Positions 3,800 to 18,032 of a stretch of DNA of 46,707 bases are shown piece by piece. The notes below the pieces were generated by a model. The model searched no databases. It was not told where the DNA came from and was given only the letters and a program-made list of their open reading frames with translations. The stretch spans positions 112,969-159,675 of the forward strand of contig CAINDP010000007.1 in the NCBI GenBank assembly GCA_903847405.1, read 5' to 3'. Every line of letters begins with the position of its first letter. Within the stretch, counting starts at the first letter, position 1. The position numbers and the translations under genes are program-made. Source of the stretch: an uncultured Myxococcales bacterium (GTDB taxonomy: Bacteria; Myxococcota_A; UBA9042; DTJE01).

Positions 3800-3841
3800 C
3801 GTCGGTCGCCCTCTGCTTCCGGTTCGCCGATTCCCTTCAAT

Positions 3842-3856
3842 GCGACTTGCGTGCCA
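3842..3856 (-). promoter_or_regulatory. Candidate sigma-54 promoter for mlaEFD operon
   Basis: Minus strand reads TGGCAC-GCAAG-TCGC, one mismatch from TGGCAC-N5-TTGC with the -24 GG and -12 GC kept at correct spacing. Transcription would start near 3830, giving a leader of about 30 bases before the mlaE ATG. The inverted repeat at 3985-4000 lies about 130 bases upstream, a normal distance for an enhancer-type activator site. Confidence 0.55.
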
Positions 3857-3984
3857 TGCTTCGATCGCGGACCTGCGATGAGCCTGCAGGTGCGTCAAGT
3901 GGCGCCTGGCGTGGCTGCCGTGCCTGCGGTCCGTCCCGGATTCACCCCCGACGGGGCGTCGCTCCCCCCTGCCCGCGGGTGCTG

Positions 3985-4000
3985 CCATCAAAGTGATTGG
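3985..4000. promoter_or_regulatory. Candidate activator site CCATC-N4-TGATTGG in the mlaE/lipoprotein divergent region
   Basis: The plus strand reads CCATC-AAAG-TGATTGG, an imperfect inverted repeat (CCATC against GATTGG). It differs at one of 16 bases from the reverse complement of the site over the start of the second sigma-54 activator (16335-16350). It lies in the 350-base gap 3800-4149 between divergent genes, about 130 bases from the mlaE promoter and about 90 from the weak promoter of the gene at 4150. Apart from these elements I see no gene in the gap. Confidence 0.5.
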
Positions 4001-4086: not shown

Positions 4087-4101
4087 TGGCTTGGTTCCTG
4101 C
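4087..4101 (+). promoter_or_regulatory. Weak sigma-54-like promoter for the Cys-rich lipoprotein at 4150
   Basis: Reads TGGCTT-GGTTC-CTGC. The GG and GC dinucleotides have the right spacing, but three consensus positions differ. A start near 4113 would leave a leader of about 37 bases. Support comes mainly from the nearby repeat at 3985-4000 and the similar arrangement at neighbouring genes. Confidence 0.25.
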
Positions 4102-5098: not shown

Positions 5099-5166
5099 GC
5101 ACCTCCAAGGGTTTGCCCCGTTCTCCCTCACAGCAACCGGCGTGCCGCCCGCTGCGGCCCGCCGGA

Positions 5167-5226: not shown

Positions 5227-5270
5227 GATGTCTCCTCGTCAGGCAGGTTGGAATGCCGACGGGATGTTTT

Positions 5271-5285
5271 GCAGGAAGCGCGCCA
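5271..5285 (-). promoter_or_regulatory. Candidate sigma-54 promoter upstream of the 19-codon frame and the 4598-5098 gene
   Basis: Minus strand reads TGGCGC-GCTTC-CTGC followed by AAAA. GG and GC spacing is correct; it differs from TGGCRC-N5-TTGC at one position. Transcription would start near 5259, about 33 bases before the ATG at 5226. Confidence 0.5.
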
Positions 5286-5386
5286 CGACGGGGGAGGGAT
5301 GTCGGCCGCAGCCCGCATGGGGAATCGGCAAGCGGGAAGGGCCTCCGGGGGTGCACCCGATCCTCGAATCGAATCATTGTGAACGA

Positions 5387-5419: not shown

Positions 5420-6436
5420 TCAGCCCGCGCTGCCATGCCCGCCCCGCTCCAGCGCGGGGAGAATCTCCGCCACGGCGGGAATCAGCGCGATCGCCGCCCG
5501 GGCGGCCGGGTCCAGGCGGACGGGAGCGCGCTGCGGGTCGCCCAGGAACTCCAGGACCTTCGCGGCGACCTTCTCAGGCTGTTGGAGGTGGGGGTAGTGC
5601 CCACATCCCGGGAACACCTCCAGCGTCGCCCCGGGGAACAGTCCCAGCGCCAGCCGGCCATGCTTCACCGGGATGACGGGGTCGTCCGCGCCCCAGTACA
5701 GCGCGACCGGGGGAAGGCTGGTGACCGCTCCCACGCCTTCGCGCGTCTGCACGACCTGGCCAAACACGTTGACGACGCCCCGGATGGTTCGGCTGAACGC
5801 CCTGCCGGTGCCGCGGATGCCGTTCTCCCGCGCGCGCCTCCCGATTTCGGGGAGCGTGGGATTTCCGAAGGAGTCGGGGCTCAACAGAAGGCTCAACAGC
5901 GTGCCGAACCACATCGCGGCGGGCGAGTACAACAGTTCGGTGAACGGCAGCGCCGCCAGGCGGAGGCCCAGCCCGACCTCGGGTCCCAGTCCGCCCGCGG
6001 CGATCAGCGCCAGCCGGTCCACGCGGGTTCGGTGGTCCAGGACCAGCCACTGCGCCACGCCTCCGCCGAAGGAGTGGCCGACCAGGTGCGCATGTCGCAC
6101 GCCGATCGCCGCCATCCAGTCGCTGATCACAGCCGCGAACCAGGTCAGCGTGTAGGGGGCGTCGGGCCGTCCGGACATGCCGTGGCCGGGGAGGTCCGGC
6201 ATCAGGACGCGATAGCGCGTTGCCAGGACCGGTGCGACGCATCGCCAGGTCCGCCGGGAGTCGCCGATTCCGTGGAGCAGCACGAGGTCCTCACCCTGGC
6301 CCCGCTCGGTCCAGGCGATCCGGGTCCCGTCGACCTCGATCTGGTGGGTCCGCTGGCGGAGGTTCGCCGCCGCCCTTCGGTCCGCAAGCCGACGACGGGT
6401 CCCGGGGTTCATCGTGGAGCCTGTCGCTGGAGTCAT
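5420..6436 (-). CDS. Alpha/beta-hydrolase fold protein
   Basis: This 338-residue hydrolase has the oxyanion HGIGD near residue 55, the nucleophile elbow GHSFGGG with Ser122, the acid in GADDPVIP and the His in GCGHYPHL, so a complete Ser-Asp-His triad is visible. The sequence MPDLPGHGMSGRP (79-91) is typical of esterase, haloperoxidase-like and meta-cleavage hydrolase branches. There is no signal peptide, so it is probably cytoplasmic. The ATG at 6436 is preceded by GGAGGAGG at ideal distance; an ATG eight codons inside is less likely. Substrate unknown. It is divergent from the hybrid kinase at 6704, with face-to-face sigma-54-like promoters between them. Confidence 0.85.
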   Translation of the reverse strand: MTPATGSTMNPGTRRRLADRRAAANLRQRTHQIEVDGTRIAWTERGQGEDLVLLHGIGDSRRTWRCVAPVLATRYRVLMPDLPGHGMSGRPDAPYTLTWFAAVISDWMAAIGVRHAHLVGHSFGGGVAQWLVLDHRTRVDRLALIAAGGLGPEVGLGLRLAALPFTELLYSPAAMWFGTLLSLLLSPDSFGNPTLPEIGRRARENGIRGTGRAFSRTIRGVVNVFGQVVQTREGVGAVTSLPPVALYWGADDPVIPVKHGRLALGLFPGATLEVFPGCGHYPHLQQPEKVAAKVLEFLGDPQRAPVRLDPAARAAIALIPAVAEILPALERGGHGSAG

Positions 6437-6469
6437 TCTTCCGCCTCCTCCATGCCCGGATCGGCCGAT

Positions 6470-6484
6470 GCATCGGTCGTGCCA
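6470..6484 (-). promoter_or_regulatory. Candidate sigma-54 promoter for the hydrolase
   Basis: Minus strand reads TGGCAC-GACCG-ATGC, one mismatch from consensus and the same -24 and -12 elements as the promoter at 216-230. Transcription would start near 6458, leaving a 22-base leader that contains the GGAGG. Confidence 0.55.
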
Positions 6485-6544
6485 GCGACACGACGTCACG
6501 ATGGTCCTGCGGCGGGAACGACCCGATTCTGCGGGGCAAGGCGA

Positions 6545-6557
6545 CCAATATGATTGG
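6545..6557. promoter_or_regulatory. Palindrome CCAAT-ATG-ATTGG between divergent sigma-54-like promoters
   Basis: A perfect 5-bp inverted repeat, flanked by GCGA on the left and TCGC on the right after one extra G, gives a near-perfect 22-base palindrome (6541-6562). It contains TGATTGG as in the repeats at 3985, 12632 and 16335. Its centre is about 67 bases from the -24 element of the hydrolase promoter and about 69 from that of the kinase promoter. Confidence 0.45.
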
Positions 6558-6619
6558 GTCGCAGGGCGAAACCGAAGCCGGCTGTTCTGCAACCACCGGT
6601 AATGACGGAGTATCGGTGA

Positions 6620-6634
6620 GGGCGCGAAACTTGC
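6620..6634 (+). promoter_or_regulatory. Candidate sigma-54 promoter for the hybrid histidine kinase operon
   Basis: Reads GGGCGC-GAAAC-TTGC followed by A. Only the first base departs from TGGCRC-N5-TTGC. Transcription would start near 6646, about 58 bases before the ATG at 6704. Confidence 0.5.
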
Positions 6635-6703
6635 AGACGCATGGGTCGGGCGATAGGTTCAGCCGTTCCATCCGAAGCCGCAGTGCTTCATGCAGAGGGT
6701 TCG

Positions 6704-9700
6704 ATGTCCTTGAAAACGAATTCGGGAATCGCGGTCGCGCTGGTCGGGGCCGCTTCGCTGGCCCTGCTGCTGGTCGTGCCGTCGTTCTGGACCTTCAATC
6801 AAATCACGGACGCCGCCGCTGCCCGCAAGGCAAGCTACGAGGTCGTGATGCGCGCGGATGGCTGGCAGTCGTCCCTGTCGGATGCGGAAACGGGCCAGCG
6901 CGGCTACCTGCTGACCGGTGACGAGTCCTTCCTGGAACCGTACCTGGCGGCGCGCGATGGCATCCGGGGAGATCTGCAGGAACTGGTCGGCCTTGCCACG
7001 ACGGATTCCGCACGCAGTCACCTGGAGGCCCTCGTTCCGATGGCCGATGCGAAACTGGCGGACCTGGCGAGCGTCATCGAGGTGCGGCGCACCGGGGGAA
7101 TCACCGCCGCGCTGGCACAGGTGCAGGGTGGTCAGGGCAAGGGCCTGATGGACTCGATTCGTGCCCGGATGAAGGAATACGTCCGGATGGAAAGGGACGC
7201 GCTGTCCCGGCACGACGCCGAGTTCCAGTCGAAACTGGAAAACCTGTTCGTCGTCATCGTCGTCGTCAGCCTGTCCATGCTGTTGTTCGTGGCGCTGACC
7301 GTCTACGCGACCCGGCGACGGGCACTGCAGCGTCTGAAGAATGCGATTCACCTGGAAACGGTCCACCTCCTGGAGATGCAGGAGGAAACCAGCCGGCAGT
7401 TGCAGCAGGCGAACTCCACCCTGCGGACCAGCGAGGAGCGCCTGGACGTCACGCTGTCCTCGATCGGCGATGGCGTGGTTGCGACCGATGCCGAGGCCCG
7501 CGTGACGCGCCTGAATCCCGTCGCCGAGGAACTGACCGGGTGGTCGCAGGACGAGGCCATGGGACGGCCGGTCGGCGAGGTGTTCAACATCATCAACCAG
7601 GAAACCCGTCTGCCCGCCACGATCCCGGTCATGGCGACCCTGGCCCACGGGACGGTCCAGGGCCTGGCCAACCATACCATCCTGATCGCACGGGACGGTT
7701 CCGAGCGCGCCATCGCCGACAGTTGCGCGCCGATTCGCGACCGGGATGGAAGGGTGGTCGGCGCGGTACTGGTGTTCCGCAACGTGACCCAGGAATACGC
7801 GGCGCAGCAGGCCCTGCGGGACAGTGCCGCGCTGGTCCAGGCGATCCTGAACACCGTGGTCGACGGCATCGTGACGTTCCAGGCGCGCGGGAGCGTCATC
7901 CAGATGGTCAACCCGGCCGTCGAGGAACTGTTCGGGTACACCGCGGCGGAACTGCACGGGAAGAGCTTCAGTGACCTGGTGCCCGAACTGGATGACGACC
8001 AGCGCAACGGTTCCCTGGAGTACTACGGCGTCAGCGACGAGGCGCGGGCGAAGGGCCTCGGTCGCGAGGTCGTGGGTCGTCGGAAGGACGGCAGCGCGCT
8101 GTCGCTGGAGATCGCGGTCAGCGAGATGTGGCAGGGGGACCAGCGCTTCTTCACGGGCATCCTGCACGACCTCAGCGATCGCAGGCGGGCTGAAGAGGCG
8201 TTGCTGAAGGCAGGGGCGCTGCAGAGCGCGATCTTCAACAGCGCGAATTTCAGCAGCATCGCCACGGACGCCAAGGGCGTGATCCAGATCTTCAACGTCG
8301 GCGCCGAGCGGATGCTGGGGTACGCGGCCGCCGACGTGATGAACAAGATCACCCCGGCCGACATCAGCGATCCGCAGGAAGTGATCGCGCGGGCCCGGGC
8401 ATTGAGCGAGGAACTGGCGACGACGATCGCGCCGGGCTTCGACGCCCTGGTGTTCAAGGCGTCCCGCGGCATCGAGGACATCTACGAGTTGACGTACATC
8501 CGGAAGGATTTCAGCCGCTTCCCGGCGGTCGTATCGGTCACGGCCCTGCGCGACGCTGCGGACGCGATCATCGGCTACCTGCTGATCGGTACCGACAACA
8601 CCGCCCGCAAGCAGATCGAGGCGGAGCAGGAGAAGATGGCCCTGCGCCTGCGCGACCAGCAGTTCTACACGCGCTCCCTGTTCGAATCCAACATCGACGC
8701 GCTGATCACCACCGACCTGTCCGGCATGATCACCGACGTCAACAAGCAGATGGAGGCGCTGACCGACTGCACGCGGGACGAATTGATCGGCGCGCCGTTC
8801 CGGAACTTCTTCACGGACCCGGAGCGCGCCGAGGCGGGCCTCAGGCTGGTGCTCAGCGAGAAGAAGGTCACGGACTACGAGTTGACCGCCAGCGCGCGGG
8901 ACGGCAGGAAGACCTCGGTGTCCTACAACGCGACCACGTTCTACGACCGGGACAGGACGCTGCAGGGGGTGTTCGTCGCCGCACGGGACGTCACCGAGCG
9001 CATGCGCCTGGACGCGGTGCTGCAGGACAAGAACGCCGAACTGGAAAGCGCCCGGTTCCTGGCCGACAAAGCCAACCTTGCCAAGTCGGAATTCCTGTCC
9101 GGCATGAGCCACGAACTGCGCTCGCCGCTGAACGCGATCCTGGGGTTCGCCCAGTTGATGGAATCCGACACCCCGCCGGCGACGCCCTCCCAGCGGGCCA
9201 GCATCGAGCAGATCCTGCACGCGGGGTGGTACCTGCTGGAGTTGATCAACGAAATCCTGGACCTCGCCGTGGTCGAGTCCGGAAAACTGTCGCTGTCGGT
9301 GGAGCCGGTGTCCCTGGAGGAGGTCGTGTCCGAGTGCCAGGCCATGGTCGAACCGCAGGGGCAGCAGCGTGGCCTGGAAGTCACCTATCCCGGCTTCGAC
9401 CAGCCGGTCTATGTCCTTGCCGACAGGATCCGGTTGAAGCAGATCCTGATCAACCTGCTGTCCAACGCGATCAAGTACAACCAGCCTGGGGGATCGGTCG
9501 CCGTGGACTACGCCGCGGTGACGCAGGACCGCCTGCGCATCAGCGTCCGGGACACGGGCATCGGGTTGTCTGCGGAAAGCCTGAAGCAGTTGTTCCAGCC
9601 GTTCAACCGCCTGGGCCAGGAGAGTCGGGGTGAGGTGGGCACCGGTATCGGCCTGGTGATGAGCAAGCTGCTGGTCGAGATGATGGGGGGGCTGATCGGT

Positions 9701-10231
9701 GTCGAAAGCACCCTGGGCGTGGGCAGCGTGTTCTGGTTCGAGGTGAGCATCGCCAGCGCGCCCGAGTTCGCGGAGGAACCCGCCTTGCAGGCGGCCCCGG
9801 TCGCCAGCGTTCTTCCCCGTGCGACCCTGCGTACCCTGTTGTATGTGGAAGACAACATGGCCAACCTGTTGCTGGTCCAGCAACTGATCGCCCGACGCCC
9901 GGACCTGCGCCTGCTGACGGCGGGGGATGGAACCGAAGGGGTCCAGACGGCCCGCAGCGCCCTGCCGGACGTGATCCTGATGGACATCAACCTTCCCGGG
10001 ATGAACGGTATCGAGGCGCTGAGGATCCTTCGCGCCGATTCGACGACGGCGGACATCCCGGTGCTGGCCATCAGCGCCAATGCCATGCTGGGGGACATCG
10101 AGAAGGGCCATGCGGCAGGGTTCTTCGACTATCTGACCAAGCCGATCAACGTCCGCAAGTTCATGGAGACGCTGGACCTGGCGTTGCAGGCGGCGCGGGA
10201 CCATCGGAACGATTCGACCGGGGAGAGGTGA
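6704..10231 (+). CDS. Hybrid histidine kinase (CHASE3-PAS4-HisKA-HATPase-receiver)
   Basis: This 1175-residue membrane sensor kinase has TM1 at 8-30, a periplasmic CHASE3-like domain (about 40-178, with the ETGQRGYLLTGDE motif) and TM2 at 181-203. Four PAS domains follow (about 243-375, 378-500, 505-640, 645-775). The HisKA domain has the phospho-acceptor His803 in MSHELRSPLNAIL. The ATPase has N-box NLLSNAIKYN and G-boxes DTGIGL and GTGIGL. The C-terminal receiver has Asp1094 in LMDINLPG. The ATG at 6704 is preceded by GAGGG and begins just before TM1. The gene for a second receiver protein starts six bases after the stop, so the two probably form a phosphorelay. The stimulus is unknown; PAS domains could bind ligands or redox cofactors. 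Confidence 0.93.
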   Translation: MSLKTNSGIAVALVGAASLALLLVVPSFWTFNQITDAAAARKASYEVVMRADGWQSSLSDAETGQRGYLLTGDESFLEPYLAARDGIRGDLQELVGLATTDSARSHLEALVPMADAKLADLASVIEVRRTGGITAALAQVQGGQGKGLMDSIRARMKEYVRMERDALSRHDAEFQSKLENLFVVIVVVSLSMLLFVALTVYATRRRALQRLKNAIHLETVHLLEMQEETSRQLQQANSTLRTSEERLDVTLSSIGDGVVATDAEARVTRLNPVAEELTGWSQDEAMGRPVGEVFNIINQETRLPATIPVMATLAHGTVQGLANHTILIARDGSERAIADSCAPIRDRDGRVVGAVLVFRNVTQEYAAQQALRDSAALVQAILNTVVDGIVTFQARGSVIQMVNPAVEELFGYTAAELHGKSFSDLVPELDDDQRNGSLEYYGVSDEARAKGLGREVVGRRKDGSALSLEIAVSEMWQGDQRFFTGILHDLSDRRRAEEALLKAGALQSAIFNSANFSSIATDAKGVIQIFNVGAERMLGYAAADVMNKITPADISDPQEVIARARALSEELATTIAPGFDALVFKASRGIEDIYELTYIRKDFSRFPAVVSVTALRDAADAIIGYLLIGTDNTARKQIEAEQEKMALRLRDQQFYTRSLFESNIDALITTDLSGMITDVNKQMEALTDCTRDELIGAPFRNFFTDPERAEAGLRLVLSEKKVTDYELTASARDGRKTSVSYNATTFYDRDRTLQGVFVAARDVTERMRLDAVLQDKNAELESARFLADKANLAKSEFLSGMSHELRSPLNAILGFAQLMESDTPPATPSQRASIEQILHAGWYLLELINEILDLAVVESGKLSLSVEPVSLEEVVSECQAMVEPQGQQRGLEVTYPGFDQPVYVLADRIRLKQILINLLSNAIKYNQPGGSVAVDYAAVTQDRLRISVRDTGIGLSAESLKQLFQPFNRLGQESRGEVGTGIGLVMSKLLVEMMGGLIGVESTLGVGSVFWFEVSIASAPEFAEEPALQAAPVASVLPRATLRTLLYVEDNMANLLLVQQLIARRPDLRLLTAGDGTEGVQTARSALPDVILMDINLPGMNGIEALRILRADSTTADIPVLAISANAMLGDIEKGHAAGFFDYLTKPINVRKFMETLDLALQAARDHRNDSTGER

Positions 10232-10236
10232 TTCGC

Positions 10237-11148
10237 ATGATTGCTGCATCGGACATTCTTCACGGCAAGATCCTGATTGTCGACGACCAGGAGGCGAACG
10301 TCGTCCTGCTGGAGCGGATGCTGCGAGGCGCCGGGTATGACCGCTTCACCTCGACCCGGGATTCGACGAAGGTCTGCGAACTGCACCTGGTGAACCGCTA
10401 TGACCTGATCCTGCTGGACCTGCAGATGCCCGGCATGGACGGCTTCCAGGTGATGGAAAACCTGAAGGAAATCGAGGTGGGAAGTTATCTTCCCGTCCTG
10501 GTGATCACGGCGCAGCCCGCGCACCGTTTGCGGGCCTTGAAGGCCGGGGCCATGGACTTCCTCAGCAAGCCCCTGGATCTGGCGGAGGTGTTGATCCGCG
10601 TCCACAACATGCTGGAGGTCCGTCTGCTGCACCTGGAAACGAAGGCCCTGTACCAGCGTGTCCTGGCCGAGCAGAAGGTGTCGGAACGACTGTTGCTGGC
10701 GGGGCTCCCGGGTGCCATCGCCGAGCACCTGCAGGGGCGCTCCGAGGGAACGGGCGAGGATTCCGCAGGACTGGTCGCAGCCAGTTGGGCCGAGGTCGCG
10801 GTCCTGTTCGCGGACATCGTGGCGTTCACGAAGTTTTCGGAAGGCGCCGGCGCCGAGGTGCTGGTGCACGTGCTCAACGACATCTCCACCCGGCTGGACG
10901 ACAAGGACGGCCGGGAGGGGTTCGACAGGAACCGGACGACCGACGACGCGTACGTGGGCGCGGCAGCGCTGACCGAAGCGGTGGCGATGCGGACGATGCG
11001 CGCGTCGCAGATGGCGCTGGACATGATCGAGGCAGTGGACCGCTTCAACGGGCACAGCCGCTTCCAGGTGAAGCTGCGGATCGGCATCGAGGCGGGCGCG
11101 AACGCCGCCGACGATGCCGCCAAGGGCCGGAGCGTGTTCGAACTGTAG
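10237..11148 (+). CDS. Response regulator with truncated, degenerate adenylate/guanylate cyclase domain
   Basis: This is a 303-residue protein. Residues 10-125 form a receiver with acidic residues IVDDQ, phospho-acceptor Asp61 in LLDLQMPGMDG and Lys111. Residues about 183-303 resemble a class III cyclase: VLFADIVAFTKFSE keeps the first metal Asp193, and DDAYV keeps Asp237. The Lys before the second Asp is replaced (RNRTTDD). The protein stops at KGRSVFEL, before the region that supplies the Asn and Arg needed for catalysis. It is therefore probably a non-catalytic output or binding module. The ATG at 10237 follows GGGAGAGG; a GTG three codons earlier overlaps the kinase stop. It is the likely partner of the adjacent hybrid kinase. 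Confidence 0.82.
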   Translation: MIAASDILHGKILIVDDQEANVVLLERMLRGAGYDRFTSTRDSTKVCELHLVNRYDLILLDLQMPGMDGFQVMENLKEIEVGSYLPVLVITAQPAHRLRALKAGAMDFLSKPLDLAEVLIRVHNMLEVRLLHLETKALYQRVLAEQKVSERLLLAGLPGAIAEHLQGRSEGTGEDSAGLVAASWAEVAVLFADIVAFTKFSEGAGAEVLVHVLNDISTRLDDKDGREGFDRNRTTDDAYVGAAALTEAVAMRTMRASQMALDMIEAVDRFNGHSRFQVKLRIGIEAGANAADDAAKGRSVFEL

Positions 11149-11175
11149 ACCACGGGAACGTTCAGGGAGCAGGCG

Positions 11176-12585
11176 ATGATGACGCTCACATCCTACGGCG
11201 CGGCCCAGGAGGTCACGGGGAGCAAGCACCTGCTGGAGGTCGGCGGGTCCAGGATCCTGATCGACTGCGGGATGTTCCAGGGCCGGCGCAAGGAGTCCCG
11301 TGCGAAGAACGAGGACATGCCCTTCGACCCGGCGACCGTGACGGCGTGCATCAACACCCACGGGCACCTGGACCATTGCGGCGCCTACCCGGTGCTGGTG
11401 AAGCGCGGCTTCCGGGGGCTGATCTGGGCGACCGCGGCCACCGTGGACGTGGCGCAACTGGTTATGGCCGACGCGGCGCGGATCCAGGTCGCCGACGCCC
11501 GGTACCTGGAAAGGGTCCTTTCGCAGAACCCCCGGGATCGGCGCGAGGTGGTGCCTCCGCTGTATGACGAGGAGGACGCGGCGCAGGCGACCGGCCTGTT
11601 CCGGCCCGTGGCGTACCGGCAGCCCGTGGAAATCGCGCCCGGTGTCACCGCGACGTTCCTGGAAGCCGGGCACATCCTGGGCTCCGCGGTGGTGCGCCTG
11701 GACGTCGTGGACGGCGACCAGCGCCGGACCATCGTCTTCACCGGCGACCTGGGGCGGCGGAACACCCCGATCCTGCGCGACCCCGATGCGGCCCCCGACG
11801 CGGACTGGCTGGTCTGCGAATCGACCTACGGCAACCGGCTGCACGATGACCTGGCGTTCGCCCAGGAGGAGCTGGCGGCCGTCGTGCGCGATACCGTCGC
11901 GAAGGGCGGTCGCGTGCTGATCCCGGCGTTCGCCGTCGGCCGCACCCAGGAACTGGTCTGGCACCTGCACCAGTTGAACGAGTCCGGCCGGATCCCCGCG
12001 ATCCCGGTCTACGTCGACAGCCCCATGGCGACCCGGGCCACCGGGATCTTCACGAAGCACACCGAGTGCTACGACGAGGAAACGGTCCGGCGGTTCGTGG
12101 ATCACGGCGAAAGCCCCTTCCGCTTCGGCGCGCTGAAGTTCACGGCCAGCGCCGAGGACAGCAAGAAACTGAACGACGTCCGGGGCCCCTGCATCGTCAT
12201 CGCCTCGTCGGGGATGTGCGAGGCGGGCCGCATCCTGCACCACCTGGTCCGCGACGTGGGCGATCCCCGGAACACGATCCTGGTCGTCGGGTTCATGGCC
12301 GAGCACACCCTGGGGCGGGCTCTGGCGGACCGGCGTCCCGAGGTGCGAATCTTCGGCGAGCCCCACCGCCTGGAGGCCCGGGTCAAGATCCTGAACGCCT
12401 TCAGCGCCCATGCGGACCGGAACGAGATCGGCGCGTGGGTGGCCCCCATGGACCAGGCGCGGCTGAAGGGCGTGCTGCTGGTCCACGGCGAACCGGTTGC
12501 CCAGGCGTCCCTGGGGGATCACCTCAGGAGCCTGGGGGTGCGACGCGTCGAAAGCCTGGTGGCAGGTCGGAGCGTGTCCCTGTGA
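11176..12585 (+). CDS. Metallo-beta-lactamase/beta-CASP family hydrolase (CPSF73-like)
   Basis: This 469-residue protein has the metal-binding motif HGHLDH at residues 62-67, the His in EAGHILGSA, the Asp in FTGDLGRR, and the beta-CASP segment with [17 protein letters not shown] and [17 protein letters not shown] and VHGE near the C-terminus complete the RNA-processing (RMMBL) part. Bacterial homologues are RNA nucleases or are annotated as MBL-fold exonucleases. It is expected to be a cytoplasmic zinc-dependent nuclease. The ATG at 11176 (ATGATG) follows GGGAG. It lies 27 bases after the receiver/cyclase gene and 58 bases before the sigma-54 activator, so it probably belongs to the kinase operon. 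Confidence 0.9.
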
Positions 12586-12631
12586 AGCTTGCTTGCGATG
12601 TTCATCCGTGAGGTGCAAATTGAACGGCGAT

Positions 12632-12647
12632 CCAATCAGAACGATGG
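12632..12647. promoter_or_regulatory. Candidate activator site over the start of sigma-54 activator 1
   Basis: The plus strand reads CCAATC-AGAAC-GATGG, so the minus strand reads CCATC-GTTC-TGATTGG, the same pattern as at 3985-4000. The ATG at 12644 lies inside the GATGG half. Binding by the activator here would interfere with transcription or translation start, which suggests autoregulation. Confidence 0.4.
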
Positions 12648-14296
12648 TGTCGATGCGCGTCGAGGACCTGGACGTCAAGGAACTGGTCGAGTTCGACACG
12701 CAGACCGGGGAAATCCACCTCGCCGGACAGCGGGCCCTCCTGATCGACGCAACCGCCCTGGGTATGCTGCGGAAGGAACTGGTCGAGCACCTGGGCCTGG
12801 AGGCGGCGCGGCTGATCCTGACCCGGTTCGGGTTCGTCCACGGATGGAACATGTCCGAGGCGATGCGGTCCCAGTTCAAGTGGGAAACCCCCGAGGACTG
12901 CGTGCGTGCCGGTGGATGCCTGCAGATGATCGAGGGGATGGTCCAGATCGCGCCGGATGATCCGGGACCCCTGTCGAAGGAGGGCCGCACGCTGCTTTCG
13001 TCCTTCGAGGCGGAACAGCACATCGCGCACCTGGGGCGCAGCGACAGCACGACCTGCTGGATGACCTGCGGCCTGACCAGCGGCTTTCTGAGCCGGGTCC
13101 TGGACAAGGAGATCTTCGTCCTGGAGGACCGGTGCATCGGCAAGGGGGATGCGTCGTGCTGCCTGCTGGCGCGAACCCGCGCGGAGTGGGAGGAACTGGG
13201 GGATTCGCGGGCCGAGGAGCTGCGGTTCTTCCGCCGGGAGCACCTGAAGGACTGGCTGGACGCCTCCCTGCACCACGTTTCCGAGACGCTGAAGCGGGTG
13301 GAGCAGCGGCTGAGCACCCGGCGACGCGCCCTGGAGCGTGTCGCGGTCGACGTGGAGGACCCGCTGGGTGTCGTGGCCCGCAGCGATTCCATGCGGCGCC
13401 TGGTGGACCTGGCGCGCCGGATCGCGAAGGTGGACTCGACGGTGCTGATCACGGGCGAAAGCGGGACGGGGAAGGAGCGCATCGCGCGGCTGGTCCACGA
13501 CGAGTCGGCGCGCAGCCGGGGGCCCTTCATCGCGGTCAACTGCGGCGCGATCATGGAAACGCTGCTGGAAAGCGAACTGTTCGGGCATGCCCGCGGATCC
13601 TTCACGGGTGCCGTGGCCGACCGTCCCGGGCTGTTCGAGGCCGCGAACGGCGGGACGCTGCTGCTGGACGAGATCGGCGAGGTGTCGGCCAGCATGCAGG
13701 TCAAGCTGCTGCGGACGCTGCAGGAGCGCGAGGTCCGCCGCGTCGGCGAAAACAAGAGCCGCCCGTTCAACGTCCGGGTCATCGCGGCGACCAACAGCGA
13801 CCTGACCGCGGACATCGCCGCGGGACGCTTCCGCAAGGACCTGTACTACCGTCTGAACGTCGTGGAACTGCGCGTGCCCGCGTTGCGGGAGCGGCGGGAG
13901 GACATCCTGCCCCTGGCGCGCGTGCTGCTGGCCGAGGCCGCGCTGCGGCTGAAGCGTCCGATGACCGGGTTGTCGCCCAGTGCGGCGGACCAGTTGCTGA
14001 AGTACGACTGGCCGGGGAACGTCCGGGAACTGGAAAATGCGATGGAGCGCTCGGTGGCGCTGGCCAGCGTCAGTCGAACCGAAATCGAGGACCTTCCCGA
14101 GGAGGTCCGCAGGGCGGTCCCCCGTCAGCCGCTGAACGGCGAGGTCAAGATCCTGGAGGACGTCGAAAAGGACTACATCCTGGCGGTCCTGGAGTTGAAC
14201 GAGGGGAACCAGGCCCGCACGGCCGAAATGCTGGACATCGGGACGGCGACCCTGTACCGCAAGTTGAAGAAGTACGGCGCCCTCCGCGGATCCTGA
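12644..14296 (+). CDS. Sigma-54-dependent transcriptional activator 1 (XylR-N/V4R, AAA+, Fis HTH)
   Basis: This 550-residue protein is built like XylR/DmpR. Residues 1-125 match the XylR N-terminal domain and about 130-180 the V4R domain. A Cys-Glu-Cys-Cys set (Cys138, Glu161, Cys164, Cys172) has the exact spacing known for the zinc site of phenol sensors DmpR/MopR. A B-linker is followed by AAA+ with Walker A GESGTGKE (271-278), the sigma-54 contact loop GSFTGA (318-323, usually GAFTGA) and Walker B LLLDEI. The Fis-type helix-turn-helix is at the C-terminus. An in-frame TTG at 12620 with GAGG upstream is an alternative start. The immediately downstream operon carries a perfect sigma-54 promoter. 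The effector is unknown. Confidence 0.92.
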
Positions 14297-14356
14297 CACG
14301 GCCCACCCAACCACGCAGCGTCCGACATCCGACCCCTCCGGCATCGGGGCGGAAGT

Positions 14357-14371
14357 CCATCGAGTTGATGG
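14357..14371. promoter_or_regulatory. Candidate activator site CCATC-GAGTT-GATGG
   Basis: A perfect 5-bp inverted repeat with five-base spacer lies 93 bases upstream of the -24 element at 14464. Followed by GG, it matches CCATC-N4-TGATTGG at all but one defined position. A smaller repeat, GCAT-TCTG-ATGC, follows at 14380-14391. It lies in the 243-base gap 14297-14539, which holds no gene. Confidence 0.45.
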
Positions 14372-14463
14372 GACGGAGCGCATTCTGATGCGGTCGGAAG
14401 GCGGGTTTCGGAGAGGGCGGGAATTGTTGCTGGGAGAACGGCATCTTGCGGGGCCATCGCGCG

Positions 14464-14478
14464 TGGCACGTCGTTTGC
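14464..14478 (+). promoter_or_regulatory. Sigma-54 promoter of the DUF4398/OmpA operon
   Basis: Reads TGGCAC-GTCGT-TTGC, an exact match to the consensus -24/-12 element with the correct five-base spacer. Transcription should start near 14490, giving a leader of about 50 bases before the GTG start at 14540. The gene directly upstream encodes a sigma-54 activator. Confidence 0.85.
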
Positions 14479-14539
14479 GAAGGATGAAGGGATGTCGACG
14501 GAAGCGACGGGTGGCTTGATGCATCAACAGGAGAATCCA

Positions 14540-16334: not shown

Positions 16335-16350
16335 CCAATCACTATGATGG
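16335..16350. promoter_or_regulatory. Candidate activator site over the start of sigma-54 activator 2
   Basis: The plus strand reads CCAATC-ACTAT-GATGG. Its reverse complement, CCATC-ATAG-TGATTGG, matches the site at 3985-4000 at 15 of 16 positions. The proposed ATGs at 16344 and 16347 lie inside it, as at activator 1. Confidence 0.45.
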
Positions 16351-18032
16351 CATCCATGCGTCTGGAAGACCTGGACGTGAAGGAACTGGTCGATTTCGAT
16401 GAAATCGCCGGCGAGATCCACGTCGCGGGCCAGCGGGCCATCCTGATCGACGCCACGGCCATGGGGATCCTGCGCAAGGAACTGGTCGAACAGTTGGGCC
16501 TGGAAGCGGCTCAGGTCGTCCTGACCCGCTTCGGGTTCGTCCAGGGATGGCGTCTGGCCGAGGCCGTGAAGGCCCAGTTCCACTGGGAGGCCGAGGCGGA
16601 CAACCTGCGTGCCGGCGGGCGCATCCACATGCTGGAGGGGATGTGCCGGGTCGCGCCGGACGACCCGGGGCCCCTGTCGAAGACGGGTCAGACCCTCCTG
16701 GCGTCCTTCGAGGCCGAGCAGCACACCGCCCACCTGGGCCGCAGCGACAGCGCCACCTGCTGGATGATCTGCGGCCTGACCAGCGGCTACCTCAGTTGCA
16801 TGGCGAACCAGGAAATCTTCGTCCTGGAGGACCGGTGCATCGGGAAGGGGGACGCGTCGTGCTGCCTGCTGGCGCGGACCCGCGAGGAGTGGGGCGATAC
16901 GCGGTCGGCGGAACTGCGCTTCTTCCAGCGGGAACATCTGAAGGAATGGCTGGACGCGTCCCTGCACCACGTGACCCAGACGCTGCGGCGCGTCGAGCAG
17001 AAACTGCGCGCCCGGAGGCGGGCCCTGTCGCTGGTGGCCGTCGACGTGGAAGACCCGATGGGGATCGTGGCGCGCAGCGATGCCATGCGGCGCCTGGTGG
17101 ACCTGGCGCGCCGGATCGCCAAGGTCGATTCGACGGTGCTGATCACGGGCGAAAGCGGCACGGGCAAGGAGCGGATCGCCCGGCTGGTCCACGACGAATC
17201 GACGCGGGCGTCGGGTCCGTTCATCGCGGTCAACTGCGGCGCGATCACGGAAACGCTGCTGGAAAGCGAGCTGTTCGGCCATGCCAGGGGGGCCTTCACG
17301 GGCGCGGTCCAGGACCGGCCGGGCCTGTTCGAGGCGGCGAACGGCGGGACGCTGCTTCTGGACGAGATCGGCCAGGTGTCCCCGGCGATGCAGGTGAAAC
17401 TGCTGCGGACGTTGCAGGAACGCGAACTGCGGCGCGTCGGCGAAAACCGCAACCGGCCGATCAACGTCCGGGTCATCGCGGCGACGAACAGCGACCTGAC
17501 GACGGACATCGCGTCCGGGCGGTTTCGCAAGGACCTGTACTACCGTCTGAACGTGGTGGAACTGCACGTCCCCCCCCTGCGGGACCGCCGCGAGGACATC
17601 CTGCCCCTGGCGCGGGTCCTGCTGGCCGAGGCGGCGCTGCGCCTGAGGCGCCCGGTGACGGGGTTGTCGCCCCGGGCCGCCGACCAGTTGCTGCGATACG
17701 ACTGGCCGGGAAACGTGCGCGAACTGGAAAACGCCATGGAGCGGGCGGTGGCGCTGTCCAGCGTCAACCGCACCGAACTGGACGACCTGCCCGAGGAGAT
17801 TCGCCACGCCGTTCCGAGCCCGTCCGTGTCGGGCGCCGTGAAGGTCCTGGAGGACGTCGAACGCGAGTACATCCTGGCGGTGCTGGACCTGAACGGCGGG
17901 AACCAGACGCGTACCGCGGGCATGCTGGGCATCGGGACCGCGACGCTGTACCGCAGGTTGAAGAAGTACTGCGCGCTGCGTCGGAACCTGCCGCCGGCGC
18001 AGCCCCGGCGGCGGGCCGGGGATCACCCGTGA
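16344..18032 (+). CDS. Sigma-54-dependent transcriptional activator 2 (XylR-N/V4R, AAA+, Fis HTH)
   Basis: This 562-residue paralogue of the activator at 12644 is nearly colinear throughout, with the same DmpR-type zinc set (Cys139, Glu162, Cys165, Cys173), Walker A GESGTGKE near 269-276, a canonical GAFTGA loop at 316-321 and a Fis-type HTH. It has an extra 20-residue Pro/Arg-rich tail. Differences concentrate in the sensory region (for example residues 70-105), so the two may read different effectors but bind the same DNA. The start is uncertain: ATG at 16344 is used; 16323 (MTWGPIT) and 16356 are alternatives, none with a strong ribosome site. The 122-base gap before it shows a GGGGGCGT/ACGCCCCC pairing but no clear promoter. 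Confidence 0.92.
   Translation: MMASMRLEDLDVKELVDFDEIAGEIHVAGQRAILIDATAMGILRKELVEQLGLEAAQVVLTRFGFVQGWRLAEAVKAQFHWEAEADNLRAGGRIHMLEGMCRVAPDDPGPLSKTGQTLLASFEAEQHTAHLGRSDSATCWMICGLTSGYLSCMANQEIFVLEDRCIGKGDASCCLLARTREEWGDTRSAELRFFQREHLKEWLDASLHHVTQTLRRVEQKLRARRRALSLVAVDVEDPMGIVARSDAMRRLVDLARRIAKVDSTVLITGESGTGKERIARLVHDESTRASGPFIAVNCGAITETLLESELFGHARGAFTGAVQDRPGLFEAANGGTLLLDEIGQVSPAMQVKLLRTLQERELRRVGENRNRPINVRVIAATNSDLTTDIASGRFRKDLYYRLNVVELHVPPLRDRREDILPLARVLLAEAALRLRRPVTGLSPRAADQLLRYDWPGNVRELENAMERAVALSSVNRTELDDLPEEIRHAVPSPSVSGAVKVLEDVEREYILAVLDLNGGNQTRTAGMLGIGTATLYRRLKKYCALRRNLPPAQPRRRAGDHP

Follow-up and report, generated by a model that had tools for sequence, protein, structure and literature searches.

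A putative shared enhancer of XylR_N/V4R activators between two divergent sigma-54 promoters in an uncultured Myxococcales bacterium

An alpha/beta hydrolase gene and a hybrid histidine kinase gene diverge from a 267-bp region (6437-6703) in the genome of an uncultured Myxococcales bacterium, and each is preceded by a sigma-54-like box. Could a single activator, bound between the two boxes, serve both genes by looping, as a preliminary description of this DNA had proposed? We addressed this question in the window, meaning the whole 46,707-bp stretch analysed (G000:C7:112969-159675). The host genome (5.65 Mb, 273 contigs) contains rpoN, and contig C7 is 159,675 bp long. The elements that the question concerns are as follows.

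5420-6436 (-): alpha/beta hydrolase gene, 338 aa (Abhydrolase_1, E 1.9e-31), divergent target 1
6469-6484 (-): predicted strong sigma-54 -24/-12 promoter, TGGCACGACCGATGCA, with the hydrolase ATG about 33 bases downstream
6541-6562: imperfect 22-bp palindrome, GCGACCAATATGATTGGGTCGC, arranged 9 + 3 + 10
6541-6557: predicted activator operator, GCGACCAATATGATTGG, 13.4 bits, the inner part of the palindrome
6620-6635 (+): predicted weaker sigma-54 -24/-12 promoter, GGGCGCGAAACTTGCA, directed at the kinase; operator centre 71 bp away
6704-10231 (+): CHASE3-PAS-HisKA-HATPase-REC hybrid histidine kinase, divergent target 2

Two outward boxes and the palindrome between them

The two outward-directed boxes and the palindrome lie where the preliminary description had placed them, and its geometry is borne out: the palindrome is about midway, with some 67.5 and 68.5 bases from its centre to the -24 ends (about 67 and 69 in that description). 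The 22-base palindrome itself, reported as near-perfect, is present at 6541-6562, its arms 9 and 10 bases long, with a one-base bulge.

Sigma-54 promoters are recognized by GG at -24 and GC at -12 at a fixed spacing (TGGCACG-N4-TTGCW), and RpoN-dependent transcription starts some 12 bases beyond the -12 element. We scored sites with a matrix set by hand from the published consensus. The left box, TGGCACGACCGATGCA, has the GG, the GC and the spacing, with one mismatch to TGGCACGNNNNTTGCW, and scores 16.4 bits; the 263,320 positions of this contig used as controls contain no site of at least 14 bits. It is thus very probably a sigma-54 promoter, and the hydrolase ATG downstream is preceded by GGAGGAGG. 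The matrix scan placed eight strong sites at about C7:111,000-134,500, and no site of at least 14 bits in C7:1-100000. The right box, GGGCGCGAAACTTGCA, keeps the GG, the GC and the spacing, has two other mismatches and scores 12.0 bits.

The operator model and the putative regulon around it

An equally good palindrome arises in 36 of 300 dinucleotide shuffles of 6437-6703 (12%), so that symmetry by itself proves nothing and was discarded as evidence. The case for the site is its resemblance to a motif found elsewhere. In other genomes of the phylum, the DNA upstream of genes homologous to two activator genes of this window carries a recurring dyad just 5' of the start codon. From 25 such regions upstream of XylR_N/V4R (DmpR-like) activators, host genome excluded, we derived a palindromic 17-bp operator model, TCNATCANNNTGATNGA, with a log-likelihood of 219 vs 35-47 in shuffles. 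An even-width model, in which the register was blurred, was dropped for width 17, and a whole-genome search with an IUPAC pattern was too loose to interpret, with an unfair reversed-pattern control, and gave way to the matrix scan. The window's activators have the recognition helix IG[ST]ATLYRKLK in common with those relatives whose helix was extracted.

Scanned with this matrix, 6541-6557 ranks seventh among 159,659 contig positions, and the seven best matches of the contig all fall inside a 27-kb island that also holds both activator genes, the first of them about 6 kb from the palindrome. The site at 6541-6557 is the sole operator with a positive score near the two promoters; in relatives, two sites 20-24 bp apart are common. 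The other predicted operators of the island and the activator genes are listed below.

3984-4000: predicted operator, 15.9 bits, 136 bp upstream of box 3841-3856 (-), before Mla-like transporter genes
5370-5386: predicted operator, 14.0 bits; distances of 93 bp to box 5270-5285 (-) and 231 bp to box 5132-5147 (-)
12632-12648: predicted operator, 11.6 bits, overlying the activator 1 start, with a further weak site (7.8 bits) at 12611
12644-14296 (+): activator 1, an XylR_N-V4R-AAA+-HTH sigma-54 activator (DmpR-like), candidate binder of the operator
14356-14372: predicted operator, 13.5 bits, 100 bp from box 14464-14479 (+), before DUF4398 and OmpA genes
16335-16351: predicted operator, 15.2 bits, overlying the activator 2 start
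16347-18032 (+): activator 2, an XylR_N-V4R sigma-54 activator, sensor region 74% identical to that of activator 1

The palindrome could instead belong to an unrelated regulator or have no function, its likeness to the V4R operator being coincidental. The frequency of such palindromes in shuffles would allow this, as would the operator score, which 1.2% of shuffles attain when the entire 267-bp region is shuffled; within the inter-promoter zone, however, the score has a P of 0.0026 (0.26% of shuffles), and the remaining 133 kb of the contig beyond the island contains no site of 13.4 bits or more. We regard coincidence as improbable. Given the two shuffle rates, the single match is moderate evidence, and it is the regulon-wide linkage that bears the weight: an operator of at least 13 bits lies upstream of five of the eight strong sigma-54 promoters in the island, where 0.04 would be expected, and none of 2000 shuffles did as well. 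The genes near these operators are for transport, DUF4398/OmpA, the hydrolase and the kinase. On this evidence the palindrome is likely to be an operator of the V4R activators, and the predicted site at 6541-6557 is one of several in a regulon.

In both candidate activators XylR_N, AAA+ and HTH_8 score above cut-off, with V4R below it (27.1 and 24.1 vs 31 bits), and both align to CapR/DmpR over most of their length. No further XylR_N match was found in the host genome or in two sister genomes, and the rest of the family has two weak ones. The sigma-54-contacting loop is usually GAFTGA, as in activator 2; activator 1 (12497-14296) has GSFTGA. Activator 2 and CapR/DmpR share an H in the effector domain that is Q in activator 1, which retains the Cys/Glu positions aligned to the CapR V4R domain.

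Elsewhere in the island, a weak sigma-54-like box, TGGCTTGGTTCCTGCA, stands at 4087(+), 95 bp from the operator at 3984, and precedes a gene at about 4150 for a small cysteine-rich secreted protein; that operator, too, may act in both directions.

Spacing, relatives and the kinase-side promoter

Whether one site could serve both genes depends on the right box and on the distances. Measured from the operator centre to the -24 end in 46 operator-box pairs, the spacing is 69-73 bp in 12, all from other genomes, and 91-94 bp in a further 7 or 8, mostly for the second site of a tandem pair. The operator-model centre, 6549, lies 65 bp from the left promoter and 71 bp from the right one. Thus, where the preliminary description had suggested looking for conserved spacing in relatives, the right promoter falls within their common 69-73 bp and the left one outside it; the spacing is typical for the weaker box and atypical for the stronger.

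This asymmetry raises the possibility that the operator is primarily for the kinase operon, the hydrolase promoter being driven by another activator or from solution. The right spacing of 71 bp fits the relatives' mode, the left spacing of 65 bp is about 0.6 helical turn off, and no strong sigma-54 box was found at the hydrolase homologues elsewhere. Yet the left box is the stronger of the two, no other positive-scoring operator is nearby, and the other island promoters use varied spacings (93, 100, 105 and 136 bp). We therefore consider this reading very improbable.

The converse alternative is that the operator serves only the hydrolase promoter at 6484(-). The box at 6620 would then be a look-alike, and some other promoter, weak or unrecognised, would transcribe the kinase. 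A two-mismatch box of 12.0 bits gives some room for this, as matches with two mismatches number 24 vs 16 expected over the whole window, which makes the right box credible mainly through its position. Palindrome and kinase are separated by 130 bases, in which about 0.002 boxes of this quality would be expected against the contig background and 0.004 by shuffling; the box lies at the common 71 bp; and the same variant, GGGCGCGCTTCTTGCA (GGGCGCG...TTGCA), lies 72 bp from a strong operator in another genome (L126). In addition, no sigma-70-like promoter was found in 6380-6760.

Relatives bear on both sides. Among the genomes searched, the exact hydrolase-kinase pair was found only here, and a search of 12 other genomes of the family found no relative of the kinase N-terminus; the PAS-kinase part of the kinase has homologues in scattered genomes. 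In L153 and L154, a kinase homologue and a divergent gene of the OmpA family flank an operator, and the OmpA-family gene has a near-perfect sigma-54 box 72 bp from it. This sole sigma-54 box points away from the kinase homologue, and no kinase-facing -24/-12 box was found in either of these two genomes, as the hydrolase-only arrangement would have it. The kinase of L153 is followed by a receiver-AAA+-HTH activator, and in L113 a kinase homologue has a V4R activator and its tandem operators nearby. These contexts indicate that the link between this kinase type, the operator and a sigma-54 activator recurs, and that the two-way arrangement looks particular to the host genome. The preliminary description had made conservation of the palindrome a test of its proposal; the outcome is divided, in that the operator does recur beside a divergent sigma-54-driven gene in L153 and L154, but without the exact pair or a kinase-facing box. 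Taken together, these data leave a hydrolase-only operator unlikely, and we favour a right promoter at 6620-6635(+) that is functional, with reasonable but far from full confidence. That one site serves both promoters is, in our estimate, somewhat better than an even bet.

A locus in L112 (at 12294) was considered as a second face-to-face case (64/72 bp) and rejected; its minus box has no GG and apparently lies in a signal-peptide-like frame. Ice-binding-like (PF11999) proteins with bacterial Ig-like domains are encoded near operators in L153 (5277-8426) and L113 (2795-3994).

The kinase ATG is most likely that at 6704, with AGAGGG before it and a membrane segment right after. Two genes follow on the same strand.

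10228-11148 (+): receiver plus truncated nucleotide-cyclase domain protein, its start overlapping the kinase stop
11176-12585 (+): MBL/beta-CASP nuclease-like gene, 27 bases after the receiver-cyclase gene

Kinase, receiver-cyclase, beta-CASP gene and activator 1 thus run on one strand: the first two overlap, 27 and then 58 bases separate the others, and a search of 10150-12700 found no terminator-like site. Because of this close gene order, the right promoter probably feeds activator 1 as well and may raise its level through the kinase operon. The cyclase part of 10228-11148 covers only positions 4-112 of the 183-position domain and the protein ends shortly after, so that it looks truncated.

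A proposed circuit and its known counterparts

From the promoters, the operator match, the island linkage and the gene order we infer the following mechanism. The palindrome would be an enhancer (UAS) for the two XylR_N/V4R proteins, activator 1 (12644-14296) and activator 2 (16347-18032). From its site at 6541-6557, a bound activator would loop to either promoter, the strong one at 6484(-) for the hydrolase or the weaker one at 6620(+) for the kinase. The transcript from the right promoter would run through the kinase operon into activator 1, giving positive feedback, and the activators would limit their own expression through the operators that overlie their start codons, as XylR does with its own gene. 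We put the probability of this explanation as a whole, in which one enhancer serves both promoters through the V4R activators and the kinase operon feeds back on activator 1, at about 0.6. The original proposal of one activator for both genes by looping is supported by the operator match, the linkage to five of eight island promoters and the right-hand spacing.

XylR/DmpR-type regulators are known from aromatic degradation, and in E. coli FhlA is shared by both units of the divergent hycA/hypA pair. The spacer between hycA and hypA is bound by RpoN (PMC8743547), and the hypABCDE-fhlA unit contains the activator gene, which parallels the kinase operon running into activator 1. The activator family differs from ours, as does the UAS, which for FhlA is a TGT/ACA-type motif (PMC6615313) vs TCNATCANNNTGATNGA here. 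A second counterpart is orp1/orp2 of Desulfovibrio vulgaris, a divergent pair of sigma-54 operons kept in step by a single enhancer-binding protein, DVU2106, which acts at palindromic sites; the DVU2106 gene lies within the orp locus and is negatively autoregulated through an overlapping site (PMC3897727). The likeness comprises two divergent sigma-54 units, one activator, a palindromic site and an activator gene in the locus; orp has two separate palindromic sites plus IHF sites, as opposed to one central operator here, and the activator family and target genes are unrelated (PMC3897727). The principle of a shared enhancer between divergent sigma-54 units is therefore already known, from a few other bacteria.

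For the activators themselves the nearest counterpart is the Ps/Pr region of the TOL plasmid, where XylR represses its own gene and activates the divergent sigma-54 promoter, and where the architecture XylR_N, V4R, AAA+, HTH is identical (PMC3253710). The targets differ: envelope, transport, hydrolase and kinase genes here, with no aromatic catabolic pathway recognised among the genes near the predicted operators. Activators of this architecture have a recognisable operator in many genomes of the phylum and, judging from the genes beside it, seem to control envelope and surface functions, with OmpA and DUF4398 genes among the targets and, in relatives, genes for ice-binding-like proteins. A literature search over titles, abstracts and a few passages found no published description of this operator; within that limited search, the new element appears to be this lineage's operator together with its envelope-type targets. 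More tentatively, and at rather less than even odds, a phylum-wide DmpR-like lineage would control envelope and surface genes through its own operator at 69-73 bp, here built into a two-way enhancer for the hydrolase and an activator-encoding kinase operon that acts as a feedback switch. The operator offers a sequence code for reading V4R-activator regulons in genomes of the phylum, and the face-to-face pair a compact natural case for how one looped activator splits its action between promoters unequal in strength and spacing.

Relatives of the hydrolase are found in records labelled Myxococcales or Deltaproteobacteria MAGs. A paralogue with 59% identity lies at C7:86199-87035 (L049), about 32 kb upstream and without a strong sigma-54 box, and the sister genome G001 has a copy with a similar level of identity. 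Upstream of the hydrolase homologues in L028, L029, L031, L032 and L033, repeated TATCAC/GTGATA-type motifs occur, which suggests a different regulator for those genes.
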